Below the pieces are notes generated by a model. The model had not been told where the DNA came from and ran no database searches. It was given only the letters and a program-made list of their open reading frames with translations. Below are positions 10,865 through 18,277 of a stretch of 64,000 nt of DNA, one piece after another (positions within the stretch are counted from its first letter, which is position 1; each line of letters starts with the position of its first letter). The translations under genes were made by a program, and so were the position numbers. Origin of the DNA: Methanosarcina horonobensis HB-1 = JCM 15518 (lineage in GTDB: Archaea; Halobacteriota; Methanosarcinia; Methanosarcinales; Methanosarcinaceae); NCBI RefSeq assembly GCF_000970285.1, contig NZ_CP009516.1, positions 2,645,036-2,709,035 of the forward strand, given 5' to 3'.

Positions 10865-11269
10865 TTGGTAAAATTAGAAGAAAAAATGAAAACTGCTTTT
10901 TCGAAAGTAAAGATCTTTCCTGTAGCTACAGCCTCAAAAGATGGAATTCCTAATGTTGTTCCAATAGGGTTCTGCCAACTCGTGGACGATGAAACTATCT
11001 GGATTGCAGACAATTTCATGGTCAAATCTCTGAAGAACCTTAAAGAAAACCCCTATGTTGCAATTTACGTATGGGGTCCAGATACAGGTGGCTGTTTCCA
11101 AATAAAGGGTAAAGCAGACGTTATTAGCACAGGAGAAAAATTCGAAAAAATGAAAGCAATTGTACATGCAGCAAAACCCGGTCTTCCTGCAAAAACTCTC
11201 ATTGAAGTCAAAATTACTGAAGTTTTCCAGTGCGCTCCCGGTCCAGGTGCAGGGCAGAAATTGCTTTGA
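10865..11269 (+). CDS. Pyridoxamine 5'-phosphate oxidase-like FMN-binding protein
   Basis: A 134-residue split-barrel flavoprotein of the PNPOx-like group. The order fits: an N-terminal helix, FPVATASKDGIPNVVPIGF (the family's 'a.T...dG.P...p' strand pair), then IWIADNFMVKSLKNLKENP and the later strands. Members bind FMN or F420, usually as dimers; the substrate cannot be inferred. I use the TTG start at 10865 because GGTGA (10856-10860) precedes it by 4 bases; the alternative is ATG at 10886. The C-terminus (CAPGPGAGQKLL) is glycine-rich. No operon partner is apparent. Confidence 0.8.
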   Translation: MVKLEEKMKTAFSKVKIFPVATASKDGIPNVVPIGFCQLVDDETIWIADNFMVKSLKNLKENPYVAIYVWGPDTGGCFQIKGKADVISTGEKFEKMKAIVHAAKPGLPAKTLIEVKITEVFQCAPGPGAGQKLL

Positions 11270-11536
11270 TAAAAAAATAAATTATGCCCTATAAAAAGTA
11301 TGATGAGATCATATAGGATTCTGTGTAGTCTTCACGATATGAGTATACTTATAGATTCAACATTAACTGAAAAGTATTCCAATTTCCTGAAGGCTTACAG
11401 AACCTTTTCTCAAGTATATTGTTCTGGATATTATATAGGATAAACTTACTAAGGCTGTGAAACCACAAAGAAGATAGAACTCCTTCAAATAGATGTTGTA
11501 CTTCTGTAATCACTAAAATGTGGGAAGTTTAAAAAA

Positions 11537-11746
11537 ATGGTAGATAATGAATTAGAACATTCTAGACCTCTAGACCCTAATACTCTCAACTATAGAAGAC
11601 TGAAAATGTTAGAACGGATACGTTATGCAGTTGATAAAGGGTTTGTAAATATTTCTGATCCTCATTTAACCAAAGTTAGGACTGATCTCAAAACCTTGCT
11701 TGAAGATATAGAAACTGAAATGGTTAATAGGGACATGAAGTTATAA
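11537..11746 (+). CDS. Small hypothetical protein
   Basis: A 69-residue charged, mostly helical protein without cysteines or membrane segments. GGGAAGTTT lies upstream of the ATG. Amino acid use looks real (LKMLERIRYAVDKGF, DLKTLLEDIETEM). I do not recognise a family. It precedes the riboflavin kinase remnant by only 14 bases, but no functional link follows from that. Confidence 0.55.
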   Translation: MVDNELEHSRPLDPNTLNYRRLKMLERIRYAVDKGFVNISDPHLTKVRTDLKTLLEDIETEMVNRDMKL

Positions 11747-11760
11747 AATGAGTTCATACA

Positions 11761-11954
11761 TTTGGAGGCGGGAAACGCTATCTTGTTGTCATGGGTGGTA
11801 TAGAGGCCGTTATAGAGGCTTCTGAAAAAACACCTTATCCGTTGATTTGATTGAGATTATTGCACCTGTAAAGCTAAGGGATGCCCTGGATTTGAACAAT
11901 GGGGACAGAGTTGTAGTACAGGTAAAAAAACAGGGTATGGAGAGCCAAAAATGA
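11761..11954 (+). pseudogene. CTP-dependent riboflavin kinase, C-terminal remnant
   Basis: From 11761 the frame reads FGGGKRYLVVMGGIEAVIEA and is then shifted near 11845. The next frame reads DLIEIIAPVKLRDALDLNNG and ends with a TGA that overlaps the ATG of ribB (ATGA, 11951-11954). This is the C-terminal third of archaeal riboflavin kinase (DUF120 family), including its IIAPV.LR...L..GD signature. The N-terminal two-thirds and any start are missing. The ATGA overlap shows that the two genes were once translationally coupled. Confidence 0.7.
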
Positions 11955-12691
11955 ACGGAAATACGGTTTACGATTGTCTTACGTATAGAAACGAAAACAT
12001 CAATCTGGCACTGGAAGCACTTCTGGCCGGAAAAATGATCCAGATCTTTGATTCGGACTCAAGGGAAGGGGAAACCGACCTCGTAATTTCTGCAAAAGCA
12101 GTCACTTATAAAGAGGTAAAGTGGATGCGAAAAGATGCAGGCGGTCTTATATGTGTAGCAGTGGACCCAGTGGCAGCAAAACAGTTAAAGCTACCTTTTA
12201 TGGCAGATCTGGTCCTTGAAGCCAGCAAAAGCAGTTACGATCTTGAGGAAGTTGTGGAAAGGGAAGGAGACCTTAAGTATGACTCTCATTCTTCTTTCTC
12301 TCTATGGGTCAACCACCGCGAGACCAGAACAGGAATTCCTGACGATGAAAGAGCCCTTACTATCCGAAAAATAGGGGACATAACAGAAAAATGCCTTTCC
12401 GGAAACGGAGTTCGTTTTGGAGACGAATTCAGGACCCCGGGTCATGTGGCGCTCCTAAGAGCTGCCGAAGGGCTTCTGGATGAACGCAACGGGCAGACCG
12501 AACTTTCAGTTGCTCTTGCCCATATGGCAGGCGTTACCCCTGCAATGGTAGTCTGCGAAATGCTGGACGATTATAATGGAAAAGCTCTCTCTAAAGAAAA
12601 GGCAAAAGAATATGGTAAAGAGCATGATCTTGTATTTCTGGAAGGGCAGGAAATAGTTGAAGCATATATAACATGGAAAAGCTGTGACTGA
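11951..12691 (+). CDS. ribB: 3,4-dihydroxy-2-butanone 4-phosphate synthase
   Basis: Makes 3,4-dihydroxy-2-butanone 4-phosphate and formate from ribulose 5-phosphate, supplying the four-carbon unit for riboflavin and, in methanogens, for FAD/FMN. Visible hallmarks are the acidic metal-binding loop (DSDSREGETDLVI), RTGIPDDERALT with the conserved Thr/Asp/Arg, and TPGHVALLRA near the C-terminus. The 246 residues slightly exceed bacterial stand-alone RibB (about 217), as in archaeal members, with an insertion near residues 90-110. The ATG overlaps the stop of the decayed riboflavin kinase frame. Confidence 0.93.
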   Translation: MNGNTVYDCLTYRNENINLALEALLAGKMIQIFDSDSREGETDLVISAKAVTYKEVKWMRKDAGGLICVAVDPVAAKQLKLPFMADLVLEASKSSYDLEEVVEREGDLKYDSHSSFSLWVNHRETRTGIPDDERALTIRKIGDITEKCLSGNGVRFGDEFRTPGHVALLRAAEGLLDERNGQTELSVALAHMAGVTPAMVVCEMLDDYNGKALSKEKAKEYGKEHDLVFLEGQEIVEAYITWKSCD

Positions 12692-13242
12692 TTTTTACTT
12701 TCTTTCAGGGTAGATAAAACAAGTCACATTAAAATACATCCAAATTCGAGATCAAATTTATCCCTAGATTAGTGCAAGATCAAAGTTGTGCTGAAACAGC
12801 CCACTGCAAGCAACGGGTAGTTCGCGTCAGCCTTTCATAATTATCCCATAAGCCTGAATCTTAATGTCTGAGGTCTGAGACATCGACATTAAGATAAATT
12901 CGCTACATTACCTCGAAGGTTCATATTTAAACTAATCTAAAAAGGTTAAGGCTTCTACTTGGAATATGAAGAATTATAAGTCACTATAATAGGGTAAGGT
13001 GGCTGTTATTAATTGAATGTAGAGGCCCTAGAAGATTTCGGAGAATTATATTCTCAGGCGGTATAGAAATATAGATTCAACTTCGAAATATTCAATTTCC
13101 CCTCTAGAATCATAATTTTTCGACTGTCTCTTACTTTAATCGATATATACTTATATTAAGTATACCTACCTACATGCAGGTAGATTTGTCCAGGAGATAA
13201 ATTAAATTATGAAAATTTATTATTATCAGGAGGCACAAAAAA
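12692..13242. other. Intergenic region before the QueG-like gene
   Basis: No gene is seen. It contains the inverted copy of the dispersed hairpin element (12778-12828), a partner of the 10349 repeat (12993-13029), a TATA-like stretch (about 13143-13155) and the palindromic operator at 13166-13183. Confidence 0.6.
13166..13183. promoter_or_regulatory. Candidate TetR operator, copy 1
   Basis: CTACCTACATGCAGGTAG is an 18-bp palindrome with one mismatched pair (16 of 18 positions symmetric). It lies just downstream of a TATA-like stretch and about 60 bases before the QueG-like gene. Its outline CTAC-TA-T-A-GTAG returns at 15635-15652. Confidence 0.65.
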
Positions 13243-14259
13243 TTGAGTAGTATCAACCTATCATCATGCATAAAAGAAAAAGCCTTAGGAATAGGTTACG
13301 ATTTATGTGGAATAACACCAGTTGATTTGGTTGAGGAATATTCATCACGTCTTGATGAGAGGATTAGAAATTTCCCCGAGTCACGTACATCATATGAAAT
13401 GCTGTATCCTCTAGCTTTTCCTCAAAAAAATGTAGAATGGGCCAAATCAATTATTGTTTGTGTTAGAAGATATGGAAAATATAAAATTCCAAAGGAACTC
13501 GATGGCTATATAGGAAAAGCATACTTGGTTGATGGAAGATTAAAACATTCTAAGGAATATTCTTGGAGACTCGAGTTTGAAGCTTATTTAAACGGGCTGG
13601 GAATTAAATATGCTTATGGAATAGTTCCAGCTCGTTTGGCAGCAGTAAATGCCGGCTTAGGACGTATAGGCAATAACAACTTTTTCTACACGAAGGAATA
13701 TGGTTCTTGGGTCTTCATTGAAACGTGGGTAATTGACAGTGAGCTGGAATATGACAAGCCAACGCGTTCATTAAATTGTCCAGATAATTGTAATAAATGC
13801 ATAGATTCATGTCCAACAGGAGCTTTGAATATGCCTTTATCAATGAACTGGGGAAAGTGCATCGCTAATCTCACAAGTGGGTTAAATTCGCAGACAGAAG
13901 GATTGAAAGCCAAGATGGGAACCTGGGTATATGGGTGTGATGTCTGTCAGAATATATGTCCCAAGAATAAAAATAAATGGGAAGAAAAGGAAAATTTCAT
14001 TGATCTATCAGACATTACACCACATTTATCTCTCGAAAGTATATGGAAGATGGATGAAGATACTTTCCTTGATGTAATTCAGCCTAGATTTTGGTATATA
14101 GGACAAGATGGCCTATGGATATGGAAGTGTAATGCTTTGAGAGCTATGGCCAATAGTGGAGATCAGAAGTATTATAAATATATTAAAGAAGCTGTAGAAG
14201 ATCCAGATCAAAATATTCGCAATACTGCTTTATGGGCCTGTCAGAAACTTGGTATATAA
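13243..14259 (+). CDS. QueG-like (COG1600) iron-sulfur protein
   Basis: A 338-residue protein with the architecture of epoxyqueuosine reductase QueG. It has an N-terminal corrinoid-binding-type domain (AAVNAGLGRIGNNNFFYTKE, compare QueG AA..AGLGWIGKNT). Two [4Fe-4S] motifs follow (CPDNCNKCIDSCP and CDVCQNICP), then a HEAT-like tail (DPDQNIRNTALWACQKLG). The TTG start at 13243 follows CAGGAGGCAC. Archaea make archaeosine, not queuosine, so the substrate must differ; a cobalamin-dependent or corrinoid-reducing reaction is the obvious inference. It heads a block with DUF3786, TetR and DUF1638 genes and has its own operator. The QueG GRDYH-like motif is replaced by GRLKHSKEY, which supports a changed function. 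Confidence 0.8.
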   Translation: MSSINLSSCIKEKALGIGYDLCGITPVDLVEEYSSRLDERIRNFPESRTSYEMLYPLAFPQKNVEWAKSIIVCVRRYGKYKIPKELDGYIGKAYLVDGRLKHSKEYSWRLEFEAYLNGLGIKYAYGIVPARLAAVNAGLGRIGNNNFFYTKEYGSWVFIETWVIDSELEYDKPTRSLNCPDNCNKCIDSCPTGALNMPLSMNWGKCIANLTSGLNSQTEGLKAKMGTWVYGCDVCQNICPKNKNKWEEKENFIDLSDITPHLSLESIWKMDEDTFLDVIQPRFWYIGQDGLWIWKCNALRAMANSGDQKYYKYIKEAVEDPDQNIRNTALWACQKLGI

Positions 14260-14290
14260 TACATGAATCCATTCGGAAAGTGAGTATTTT

Positions 14291-14920
14291 ATGAATAGTG
14301 GTTATGATCAAATTTATAAAAATCTTATACTCAAACTAGACAAATGCGATTTTGTAGAGGTTGCCGAACGTCTTGGTTTGTTACTTCAGCCGAACGGAGC
14401 CCTATCTGTCAATTTTCTTGGTCGGGAATATGAGATAAGTTCTCAAGGTATTAATCCAACTGACGGCAAGCCGGTTAATGTCAACAACCGCAGTGTTCTG
14501 GCTTACTATTTATTATCAAAAGGTAAAGGCGAACCTGCGTATTCATATGTGCCAATTCATAATCTTACCGGCGTAGTAATATCATCCAGCACAAATACAA
14601 AATGGATGACCGATCCGCTTAGTAAAACATTCAGTCAAGATTATGCAACATTCAGTGAAGCTATTTGCAGATTAGGTGGGGTTTTTAACGGCAAGCTGAA
14701 ATCGGGCGGCTATTCATGGCTTCTTGAAGCATTGCCTAAAATCCTCCTCCAAATCGTATATTATGAAGAAGATGCTGAATTTCCTTGTGAAGTTCAAATT
14801 CTGTTTGATAAAAATGCTTCATACTTTCTGGAGTCTGAATGTCTGGCTTTTTTAGAGGGATGTCTTGTAAGAGCAATAATCATGACAGCAAAAACAGGAG
14901 ATACAGCTGGATGGGTATGA
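14291..14920 (+). CDS. DUF3786 family protein
   Basis: A 209-residue soluble protein that begins 31 bases after the QueG-like gene and is probably co-transcribed. Recognisable DUF3786 features are the N-terminal helix followed by LSVNFLGREYEI, then RSVLAYYLLSKGKGEP, FSEAICRLGG and ILLQIVYYEEDAEFPCEVQILFDKNASYFL. DUF3786 has no established function; family members often neighbour iron-sulfur or corrinoid proteins. There is no signal peptide or membrane segment and only two cysteines. The ATG start is preceded by GAAAGTGAG. The DUF3786 call is by memory of the family pattern and should be treated as probable. Confidence 0.65.
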   Translation: MNSGYDQIYKNLILKLDKCDFVEVAERLGLLLQPNGALSVNFLGREYEISSQGINPTDGKPVNVNNRSVLAYYLLSKGKGEPAYSYVPIHNLTGVVISSSTNTKWMTDPLSKTFSQDYATFSEAICRLGGVFNGKLKSGGYSWLLEALPKILLQIVYYEEDAEFPCEVQILFDKNASYFLESECLAFLEGCLVRAIIMTAKTGDTAGWV

Positions 14921-15034
14921 TACTGATACATGTATTGTATGAGCTGCAAGATGTCTTTCATTTATACAGAGTTAGGACTAATTTTTATATGAATCAGTAC
15001 TGTTCAAGTATTCACAAGAAACAAGTGTTTTCAT

Positions 15035-15613
15035 ATGACAGATATAAACCAGACCAATCAACAAATACTCCATTACGCAAGACACTTTTTGCAATGCCAG
15101 GGTTACAATGGATTTAGTTACAAGGATATTTCCCAGAAACTGGGGATAAAAAACGCTTCAATACATCATTATTATCCAAAAAAAGAAGATTTAGTTGCAG
15201 CCTTGCTTGAAGAGAGCAGAAAAAATTTAGCTGAGAATATTTTCAAAATAGCGGAATCTGGAGGGTCTGCTCGTCAGCAGCTTCAATACTATTTCGATTA
15301 TTCATTAAAGGAGTTTGATGAAGGTAAAAGTATCTGCCCTCCTGGATCATTGATCCTTAATTTTGAAGGCCTTCCAGAAGAAGTTAAAAAGCAAAATCTG
15401 TTGCTACTAAATTATATACTAGATTGGATCACCAAAGTTCTCAGAACCGGTTTGGAACAGGGGGAATTCAATTTTTCAGACCCTGTAGAAGTGCGCGCAG
15501 AATTGGTAGTCGAGACATTGATGGGGGCCAGACTATTATCTAGTATCCAAGGTAGAAAAACACTTGTCAGGTCTATTTCCTTAATCAAATCTGATCTTGG
15601 ATGGAAGGATTAA
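15035..15613 (+). CDS. TetR/AcrR family transcriptional regulator
   Basis: A 192-residue repressor-type protein. Residues 8-55 form the TetR helix-turn-helix (ILHYARHFLQCQGYNGFSYK, then IKNASIHHYYPKKEDLVAAL), followed by a helical ligand domain with the TetR_C-like stretch CPPGSLILNFEGLPEEVKKQ. It lies between the DUF3786 gene and the DUF1638 pair. Matching palindromes stand before the QueG-like gene and directly after its own stop, upstream of the DUF1638 genes, so it likely controls both transcripts. The ligand is unknown. The closest style is the YxaF/LmrA group, but that is only an impression. Confidence 0.88.
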   Translation: MTDINQTNQQILHYARHFLQCQGYNGFSYKDISQKLGIKNASIHHYYPKKEDLVAALLEESRKNLAENIFKIAESGGSARQQLQYYFDYSLKEFDEGKSICPPGSLILNFEGLPEEVKKQNLLLLNYILDWITKVLRTGLEQGEFNFSDPVEVRAELVVETLMGARLLSSIQGRKTLVRSISLIKSDLGWKD

Positions 15614-15634
15614 TTTTATTTATCCACTTAGAAC

Positions 15635-15652
15635 CTACTTATGTATAAGTAG
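15635..15652. promoter_or_regulatory. Candidate TetR operator, copy 2
   Basis: CTACTTATGTATAAGTAG is palindromic except for its central two bases. It lies 22 bases after the TetR stop and 65 bases before the DUF1638 gene, and agrees with the 13166 palindrome at both outer CTAC/GTAG arms and the inner TA/A positions. Confidence 0.65.
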
Positions 15653-15716: not shown

Positions 15717-16526
15717 ATGTTCATGATGCCTGTTTTAAGCATATTAAGCTGTAAAATACTTCAGGATGAGATAGTTTGGCTTATTACAAATGATTCGCAA
15801 ATAAAGAGAGTTATAATCGCAGAGAATGGAAATATCCTTGAGTTTACAGAAAAACTAGATGAACAGCATATAAATTATAATATTGTTCCTTTTAAGAAAT
15901 TGCCACAGATCCTTCAAAATATTGACAGGGATGAACTTACTCTTGTGGTCAATCTGAGAGAACTTGGGCTTCATGCAGCACCAAAAATATTGAAATCTGA
16001 GGTCTATCAAAATATCAGGGAAATGATACCTTTCTCGAATGGGATACTCATTTTTTACGGTCTTTGCGGAAATGTTCTGGGTAATGTTGAGGAAGATTTT
16101 TGCCTGGAAAAAGATGGTTGTACGGTGCGGATACTGAGGGATGATGAAAGAGTTGTAGATGACTGCATAGGAGCAACGGTAGGCGGTGGTGCAAACTACC
16201 TCAAATTGCTTAAAACCCATAGTAAGGAGCCTGCTTTCTTCTTTACACCGATGTATGCAAGTTCATGGAAAGAGCTTTTAAACATAAATAAACTCCATTC
16301 TAATCCTGAAAAGGCATTGAAAATGGCAAAAATGGTAAATGACCTGGCAGGATATTCAAGAGTTGCAAAAGTCAATACAGGCCTGACATATGTAAAGAAC
16401 ATAGATGAAAAGATCGAAGAATATGCTAAATTGTTTGGATACAGTACTTTTGAAGTTGATGGTAATCAGGAAATATTCAAAAAATGTTATCTTTCCATGA
16501 AGAAAGAAATATGCGATCATTGCTGA
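15717..16526 (+). CDS. DUF1638 family protein, first copy
   Basis: A 269-residue protein whose N-terminus (MPVLSILSCKILQDEIVWLI) and central NGILIFYGLCGN and DDERVVDDCIG stretches match DUF1638. This family is common in Methanosarcina and acetogens beside corrinoid methyltransferase genes and has no proven activity. Conserved cysteines occur at the N-terminus (LSCKIL), in YGLCGN, and in DDCIGA. There is no signal peptide. The start may be at either of two nearby Met codons; GGAGATGTTC precedes. It is followed by a second family member 17 bases downstream, so the pair forms an operon. The upstream palindrome suggests TetR control. Confidence 0.8.
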   Translation: MFMMPVLSILSCKILQDEIVWLITNDSQIKRVIIAENGNILEFTEKLDEQHINYNIVPFKKLPQILQNIDRDELTLVVNLRELGLHAAPKILKSEVYQNIREMIPFSNGILIFYGLCGNVLGNVEEDFCLEKDGCTVRILRDDERVVDDCIGATVGGGANYLKLLKTHSKEPAFFFTPMYASSWKELLNINKLHSNPEKALKMAKMVNDLAGYSRVAKVNTGLTYVKNIDEKIEEYAKLFGYSTFEVDGNQEIFKKCYLSMKKEICDHC

Positions 16527-16543: not shown

Positions 16544-17410
16544 ATGCCAGTGTTGAGTATAGTTGCCTGTGAAATGCTTGAAGATGAATTAGTATACGCT
16601 CTCTCAAAAGACCCTGAAATTAAAAGGCTGTTTGTAATAGAGAACAGAAACAGTTTCCGATTTGTAAAGAAACTAAAGTCTGAACATCTTAAACCTTTTG
16701 TGTTTTCTCCAGAGAAGTTGTATCCCCTTATCTCAGAAATCAATAGGAAATCATTTGGTAATCCTATGGGAAAGCTTTCTAACTTTCCTTTATTTAAGAA
16801 AACATATGATGTTATATTTAACAAAAAGCAGCAAAAATTAACTGTTGTTGTAAACCTTCTACGAAAAGATTTACATTCTGATATTGACCTTTTGCAATCT
16901 GAAGTATATCTGAATGCCAAAGAAATGTCAAAAATCTCGAATGGTGTTCTTTTATTCTATGGAAAATGTGGCTTTAGTTCTGAAAAAATGCAAGCAGAAT
17001 TGCAAAAACTTGGTTGTCCTATTTGTTTTCTGAGGGATGAAGGAAGAAATATTGTTGATGACTGCATAAGCGTAGCATTAGGGGGGAATGAAATTTACAC
17101 AAAAACGATGCTATTGGGAAATGGCAAAGGAGCCATATATGCAACACCAATGTGGCTTTCCGAACTGAATGAAACCAATTATAAATCTTCTGAATCTTAC
17201 CAAAAGATCAGCAAATACCTAACCTCTCCTATGTATAGTCTTCTTTTTAAGATTAACAATCAACTCTATAAAGATGCTAATTTTCATAGAAATGCTTCTG
17301 AGTTTGCAAAAATTTTTAACATGAATATTATCAATGTTAATGGAACAATGAAGATAGCAATTAACTCTTACATGGAAGCTAAAACCGATATTTACAAAAA
17401 TTTAGCCTAA
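16544..17410 (+). CDS. DUF1638 family protein, second copy
   Basis: This paralogue of the preceding gene shares the N-terminal pattern (MPVLSIVACEMLEDELVYAL), NGVLLFYGKCG and GRNIVDDCISVALGG. I start it at ATG 16544, where GAAGGT precedes and the family N-terminus begins. An upstream in-frame ATG at 16484 would overlap the previous gene and add 20 non-conserved residues. It carries a lysine-rich insertion around residues 75-105 that the first copy lacks. The two may act as a heteromer; function unknown. A hairpin at 17473-17493 ends the operon. Confidence 0.78.
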   Translation: MPVLSIVACEMLEDELVYALSKDPEIKRLFVIENRNSFRFVKKLKSEHLKPFVFSPEKLYPLISEINRKSFGNPMGKLSNFPLFKKTYDVIFNKKQQKLTVVVNLLRKDLHSDIDLLQSEVYLNAKEMSKISNGVLLFYGKCGFSSEKMQAELQKLGCPICFLRDEGRNIVDDCISVALGGNEIYTKTMLLGNGKGAIYATPMWLSELNETNYKSSESYQKISKYLTSPMYSLLFKINNQLYKDANFHRNASEFAKIFNMNIINVNGTMKIAINSYMEAKTDIYKNLA

Positions 17411-17932
17411 AAAAAGATCATCATTCACCAAATCAAATTCGGTAATTAAATTTGATGTTTATTAATTCTAGTGTTTTCTCTGTGGGAGAAAACTTGATTT
17501 TAGAAAAAGAATTTCATAATTACAGGCTAGAATAAAACTATTTTATCTTCAAAAAGTTTTTAGATAATACTTGAGGTGAGTAAATTAATTCCAGTGAACT
17601 ATTGCTTTTATTTCAGTCGAATACCCCGCTAGCTTGCTGCGGGGATGGAAAACTTTCCCAGTAACCGTTAATGAAAGTTCAATGTATCAATTTCATTTTT
17701 GGGCTGTCAATTTCTGCTCAAACTAAATTATTTAGGGTTATTGTCTACTTTAACGAAATTTGGAGCGGTGGCGCGAACATACCCCGTTGCTTGCAGCGGG
17801 GTGCGCCAGCGCAACTTTGATTAAAGAATGAATCTGATAATATATCACCTGAATATTTGATGAAGGCAAAAGAGTATGATAATAAACATATACAAGATCC
17901 TCCAGAAAGCCCCAAATATATAATCCAGCATA
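17411..17932. other. Intergenic region with terminator and repeat elements
   Basis: GTTTTCTC/GAGAAAAC (17473-17493) is a terminator-like hairpin for the DUF1638 operon. 17611-17644 (TTCAGTCGAATACCCCGCTA region) is a repeat found inverted at 24235-24264. 17771-17826 is the best copy of a dispersed element whose core ACCCCGTTGCTTGCAGCGGGGT folds into a short hairpin (see also 10411 and 12778). From about 17828 an open frame of coding-like quality overlaps the start of the next gene. Confidence 0.6.
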
Positions 17933-18277
17933 TTGCCAGATATAATAATAGAAATATTCTCAGAGCTTCGAAATCGGAATTACGTAGATACTCTTGAAGA
18001 GATTGATCACGAAAAACTCGAAGACTTCATTCTCCGAATAAATCAATATATGGATGAAAATGTGCCCAATCAAAAAGACTTAAAAGAATATATTCGAATT
18101 ATATGTACCTATTTAACCTTTAAAGCAAAGAAGCCACTGCATCCCCCAGGCATGATTATTGATGGTAACAAGAAAATATTTAAAAAAGGAGACAATTATT
18201 TTTGTCCAATGAAAAGTAAGTATCTATCAGAGGCTATGTCTTTATGTAAATATTGCGTTTGTAAGAAAATTAATTAA
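17933..18277 (+). CDS. DUF2115 (UPF0305) family protein, short N-terminus
   Basis: A 114-residue product with the conserved end of DUF2115: NVPNQKDLKEYIRIICTYLT, then FKAKKPLHPPGM, and a C-terminal cysteine cluster (FCPMKSK, CKYCVCKK) that could bind metal. The function of this methanogen family is unknown. Typical members have about 40-60 more residues at the N-terminus. Here the frame is closed by TAA at 17921, while another frame is open from about 17828 to 18000 and reads sensibly (SPEYLMKAKEYDNKHIQDPP). A frameshift near 17930 may therefore have split the gene. The TTG start has no clear ribosome site. Confidence 0.6.
   Translation: MPDIIIEIFSELRNRNYVDTLEEIDHEKLEDFILRINQYMDENVPNQKDLKEYIRIICTYLTFKAKKPLHPPGMIIDGNKKIFKKGDNYFCPMKSKYLSEAMSLCKYCVCKKIN

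Follow-up and report, generated by a model that had tools for sequence, protein, structure and literature searches.

A predicted TetR-family regulon around paired DUF1638 genes, a candidate accessory module for corrinoid reactivation in Methanosarcina

In the window (the whole 64-kb stretch of Methanosarcina horonobensis DNA analysed here), a gene for a TetR-family regulator lies between two palindromes, O1 and O2, that are very probably its operators. We read the genes behind these sites as an accessory module under TetR control that serves corrinoid reactivation, with a probability of roughly 0.62. The conservation of the motif, its correlation with the recognition helix of the regulator, the gene neighbourhoods, and the loss of QueG-defining features in one of the encoded proteins are all visible in the sequences themselves.

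The first-pass annotation of the window had placed two matching palindromes upstream of the QueG-like and DUF1638 genes, one on either side of tetR, and both are present there. O1 (CTACCTACATGCAGGTAG, 13166-13183) and O2 (CTACTTATGTATAAGTAG, 15635-15652) have eight of nine complementary pairs each, and motif scans predict both as operators of the CTAC type. An AT-rich, TATA-like stretch just 5' of O1 (13137-13158, + strand) is the putative promoter of the operon for the QueG-like protein. The genes are all on the + strand. Downstream of O1 are those for the QueG-like protein (13243-14259; 338 aa), a COG1600/RdhA-like protein with a double [4Fe-4S] part and C-terminal HEAT repeats, and for a DUF3786 protein (14291-14920; 209 aa; PF12654, 156.2 bits, cut-off 27). 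The TetR/AcrR-family regulator (15035-15613; 192 aa), which is presumed to act on O1 and O2 as a repressor, has a TetR_N helix-turn-helix that scores above the curated cut-off (PF00440, 37.9 bits, cut-off 24). O2 is located shortly past the tetR stop codon and upstream of the genes for DUF1638 protein a (15720-16526; 268 aa; PF07796, 130.4 bits, cut-off 27) and DUF1638 protein b (16544-17410; 288 aa; PF07796, 107.1 bits, same cut-off). Beyond this pair is a DUF2115 gene (17858-18277) whose 5' part is disrupted by stops; its open part, 17933-18277, matches PF09888 with 101 bits.

No further exact match to the layout common to O1 and O2 was found elsewhere in the 64-kb window. Chance palindromes are ruled out genome-wide, though the window-wide search allowing two mismatches is weak by itself (8 matches observed, 4.4 expected, near chance); the significance of O1 and O2 comes from the whole-genome data and from the relatives, not from the window-wide count. 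In the 5.02-Mb host genome, the pattern YTACYTR(N4)YARGTAR (consensus YTACYTRNNNNYARGTAR) occurs in five places, all of them beside the three paralogous tetR genes or in their cassettes, versus one place for the reversed control pattern. The stringent 18-mer has three palindromic places genome-wide, which are O1, O2, and one at a paralogous cassette. This second cassette, with the order tetR-operator-DUF1638-DUF1638, is 236 kb from the cassette in the window. With the outer base relaxed to C or T, two further sites appear, both at the third paralogous locus, which contains DUF3786, a broken QueG-like copy, tetR, and a DUF1638 pair. Genes for a PNPOx-like protein and ribB accompany both the window cassette (10865-12691) and the third cassette (L045:4601-6779), and the two copies are 86-89% identical; this suggests duplication of a larger block, with the copies now about 136 kb apart.

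Orthologues of tetR were found in 20 of 31 Methanosarcina genomes, and are present also in Methanolobus and Methanomethylovorans. A search for the motif in these other Methanosarcina genomes, which the annotation had proposed, recovered a site within 300 nt of 24 of the 25 tetR orthologues in the 31 genomes; together with the Methanolobus loci, a cognate palindrome near the regulator's own gene is thus kept among the orthologues, as is expected in the TetR family. The 31 Methanosarcina genomes contain 67 sites, of which 45 have a tetR no more than about 3 kb away. The remaining 22, or 0.7 per genome, match the yield of the reversed control, and genomes that lack tetR are at the background rate.

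The commonest position of the site, in both Methanosarcina and Methanolobus loci, is about 20-24 nt past the tetR stop codon and before DUF1638. In one Methanosarcina lineage (L050 and L061-L064), the site is 39-86 nt past tetR and a second site is found 11 nt before tetR; Methanolobus keeps the usual layout and has another site roughly 60 nt before tetR. The palindrome is retained at orthologous loci despite diverged flanks, and L048 has CTACCTACATGTAGGTAG at the position orthologous to O1. The autoregulatory sites of L050 and L061-L064 have a TATA-like box some 20 nt upstream of them, which would put the start site under the operator. O1 is likewise preceded by an AT-rich box. At O2, a T-rich run precedes the operator and an AT-rich box follows it; the position of the promoter is therefore ambiguous, and activation is still conceivable at this site.

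The operator and the recognition helix of the regulator change together. Residue 42 is serine in 13 TetRs, among them the one in the window, and their operators are of the CTAC type. It is alanine in 21 TetRs, whose operators are of the TTAC type wherever a site exists; the TetR of L117 has, by eye, alanine at this residue and goes with a TTAC-type site. Mixed sites, in which one half has C and the other T, occur in L056, L113, and L117. The change from Ala42 to Ser42, and with it from TTAC-type to CTAC-type operators, maps to a single branch of the tree (support 100/96), which indicates one evolutionary event for the residue and operator rather than many. This covariation suggests that it is this TetR that reads the motif. 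Control of both operons by one TetR, proposed earlier from the two palindromes, is probable, given a motif that orthologues and paralogues retain and that varies in step with the recognition helix. That each palindrome serves just its own operon, read by a regulator other than this TetR, or that the palindromes work as terminators or structured RNA, strikes us as quite improbable: the T-rich run before O2 would fit such a role, but the site tracks tetR in the way described and follows the helix, and both the O1-type and the autoregulatory sites precede genes instead of trailing them.

The suggestion that all five genes make up one conserved system was not borne out, since the QueG-like and DUF3786 genes are present in a minority of genomes and are often broken. 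The conserved core is tetR with the two DUF1638 genes. The QueG-like/DUF3786 block is found upstream in a minority of the Methanosarcina loci, and neither gene was found in the Methanolobus or Methanomethylovorans cassettes. Several loci have a damaged or incomplete block: L045 is interrupted by TAA, L046 and L059 are split, and L049 and L056 contain remnants of DUF3786. Intact relatives of DUF2115 adjoin the same operators in L049, L052, L060, L107, L109, and L112. In another branch, an amino-acid permease, DUF6951, and DUF2099 are found near these operators.

The QueG-like protein is, judged by its sequence, a QueG/RdhA relative with a different role. It matches Pfam Fer4_16 with 51.6 bits and TIGR00276 with 149.3 bits, under the 200-bit equivalog cut-off. 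In an alignment with PDB 5d08, all eight Cys ligands of the two [4Fe-4S] clusters are kept. The QueG segment with VDTG in 5d6s, whose Asp we take to be the catalytic one, has no counterpart in the QueG-like protein, which reads AYGIVPARL. QueA (PF02547) was detected in none of the 31 Methanosarcina genomes, and 9 of 14 control genomes were positive. A function as epoxyqueuosine reductase is ruled out by the TIGR00276 score, the missing catalytic-Asp segment, and the lack of QueA in the genus. The protein thus resembles QueG (5d08, 5d6s) in its double ferredoxin-like part, its eight cysteines, its HEAT-repeat C-terminus, and its similar length, and differs from it in the same three features; it is a clear case of the fold of a queuosine enzyme reused in an organism unable to make epoxyqueuosine via QueA. 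The nearest paralogue in the genome, in the third cassette, is the copy interrupted by TAA. Pyrrolysine readthrough of this copy is ruled out, as the codon is TAA and not TAG.

DUF3786 is rare, occurring in 5 of the 147 genomes of the phylum, and its structure model (pLDDT 42) is too poor for use. In a search for a bacterial origin, the QueG-like/DUF3786 pair was not found as a linked pair in plasmid records. Helicobacter pylori, to our knowledge, has no corrinoid methyltransferases. DUF3786 has been reported in this species too (PMC12666383). The block might also be read as an unrelated, horizontally acquired operon that took up the operator, with the DUF1638 pair alone linked to corrinoids. 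We consider this possible but doubtful. The accessory nature of the block, with its broken or lost copies (L045, L046, L059), and the rarity of DUF3786, which has no corrinoid evidence attached to it, speak for such an origin, but almost all copies that retain at least one intact gene of the pair (window, L045, L048, L052, L057, L058) have the operator in front of the block, and the QueG family has a corrinoid/Fe-S fold by homology.

The corrinoid link that had been proposed for these genes is supported for DUF1638, through synteny with ramA-pyl and with MttB/MttC and through published work (PMC5764234, PMC12478193); for DUF3786, a corrinoid or Fe-S role found no support. In nine Methanosarcina genomes (L049, L051-L058), the orthologous cassette directly follows the pyl genes and so adjoins the RamA-pylTSBCD methylamine region. 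The upstream order in most of these nine loci is ramA-pylSBCD; the contig of L052 starts within pylC. In three genomes without tetR (G006, G013, G029), DUF1638 is 2.4-4.4 kb from pylB. In contrast, pylB in the M. horonobensis genome (C1:4855257) is not close to any of the cassettes. DUF1638 has further neighbours of this kind in other genera: in L130, the RamA gene ends 2 nt before DUF1638, and in L126 genes for MttB, a corrinoid protein, an ASKHA protein, DUF1638, and RamA are found together. Among the DUF1638 genes outside cassettes, 7 of 36 are within 6 kb of a B12-binding_2 gene, versus 1.5 expected.

In Phaeobacter inhibens, RB-TnSeq showed that methionine rescues DUF1638 mutants; the DUF1638 protein is cofit with a RamA-like protein, the two families co-occur, and the authors tied DUF1638 to B12 reactivation without proposing a specific function (PMC5764234). 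Proteomics agrees with this tie (PMC12478193). As in the cassettes, a PF07796 protein (PGA1_c13340) is there functionally connected with methyl transfer that depends on B12 and with a RamA-like reactivase (DUF4445) (PMC5764234); however, P. inhibens has a single DUF1638 gene that ends a methionine-synthase operon, whereas here there is a tandem pair with a local TetR and, in relatives, the link to pyl and ramA. From the literature and the synteny, DUF1638 probably has a role in corrinoid reactivation. In genomes of another family of the same class (f3), DUF1638-family proteins are present without RACo; the family is therefore not strictly tied to RamA. Cys10, Cys115, and Cys148 are invariant in an alignment of 14 diverse DUF1638 members. 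An AlphaFold2 model of DUF1638 is alpha/beta (pLDDT 86). Foldseek returned no PDB match for the model at E<=0.001, and VIA-align matched it to generic P-loop/Rossmann-like folds, with the best Z, 10.1, for a designed protein. The matches being generic, no function was drawn from the model.

We infer repression rather than activation, binding by TetR, an inducer, and the biochemical role of each protein along the following lines. A TetR dimer would bind the site of about 18 bp before the QueG-like/DUF3786 genes and before the DUF1638 pair, and the bound protein would block transcription until a ligand or redox signal frees the DNA. In many relatives, TetR would also repress its own gene via the site in front of it. 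Once induced, the proteins would most likely work alongside RamA to maintain corrinoid methyltransferase proteins or to reactivate them by reduction of Co(II) to Co(I). In this scheme DUF1638 would act as a partner of RamA, and the QueG-like Fe-S protein as an optional helper in electron transfer or corrinoid handling. Cys101 of TetR, in the motif CPPGS, is invariant in 25 orthologues and would permit a redox or electrophile signal to reach the regulator.

The same cysteine is the basis for a different reading, in which TetR senses redox, electrophile, or nitrosative stress via Cys101 as in NemR-type regulators, and the regulon repairs metal centres generally, with the corrinoid link secondary. 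Prismane genes near tetR in Methanomethylovorans and Methanolobus profundi, a KatG-type catalase-peroxidase (identified by sequence) upstream in the window, and ferritin-like and Usp-like genes near pyl-linked cassettes are consistent with it. However, these stress genes have no operator of their own and vary among genomes, a comparable Cys occurs in other TetRs (2g7s), and the linkage to ramA-pyl is more consistent than that to stress genes; we regard a stress sensor as unlikely. The accessory module for corrinoid reactivation can also be given a bolder form, which we put forward tentatively: a dedicated TetR regulon in methylotrophic methanogens may sense the state or supply of the corrinoid methyl-transfer chain and induce new maintenance machinery, namely the Cys-conserved DUF1638 pair and optionally the QueG-like protein, distinct from RamA yet cooperating with it.

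A local TetR regulon is of a known kind. Like local repressors of the TetR, NemR, AcuR, and ScbR type, the predicted regulator has a TetR_N domain, a short inverted-repeat operator, neighbouring targets, and often an autoregulatory site; it differs from them in operator motif, targets, and archaeal host. A literature search covering few subscription journals found no paper on a Methanosarcina TetR regulator of methylamine genes, nor these targets, this operator, or the link to ramA-pyl. The cassette would thus add an undescribed local regulator to methylamine methanogenesis. DUF1638 is linked to B12 reactivation and has no proposed biochemical role, and a readable operator beside ramA-pyl offers a handle on when this family is needed.

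The same operator is found beside DUF2099 at L066:6968-7160, L091:8130-8342, and L117:8780-8797; DUF6951 is also there in L066 and L091, and L091 has no adjoining tetR. A second COG1600/reductive-dehalogenase-like protein is encoded near several tetR loci (L045:2501-3622, L066, L067), and the L045 copy gave no Pfam match. Methanomethylovorans and Methanolobus profundi (L115, L116, L117) have genes for a hybrid-cluster protein (Prismane, PF03063) within a few kb of tetR, a possible link to nitrosative stress. ASKHA proteins of the hydantoinase/oxoprolinase type (640-658 aa) flank DUF1638 in L123, L124, L125, and L126; several of their genes adjoin those for MttB, a corrinoid protein, and RamA, and these proteins are possibly a second family of corrinoid-activation ATPases.
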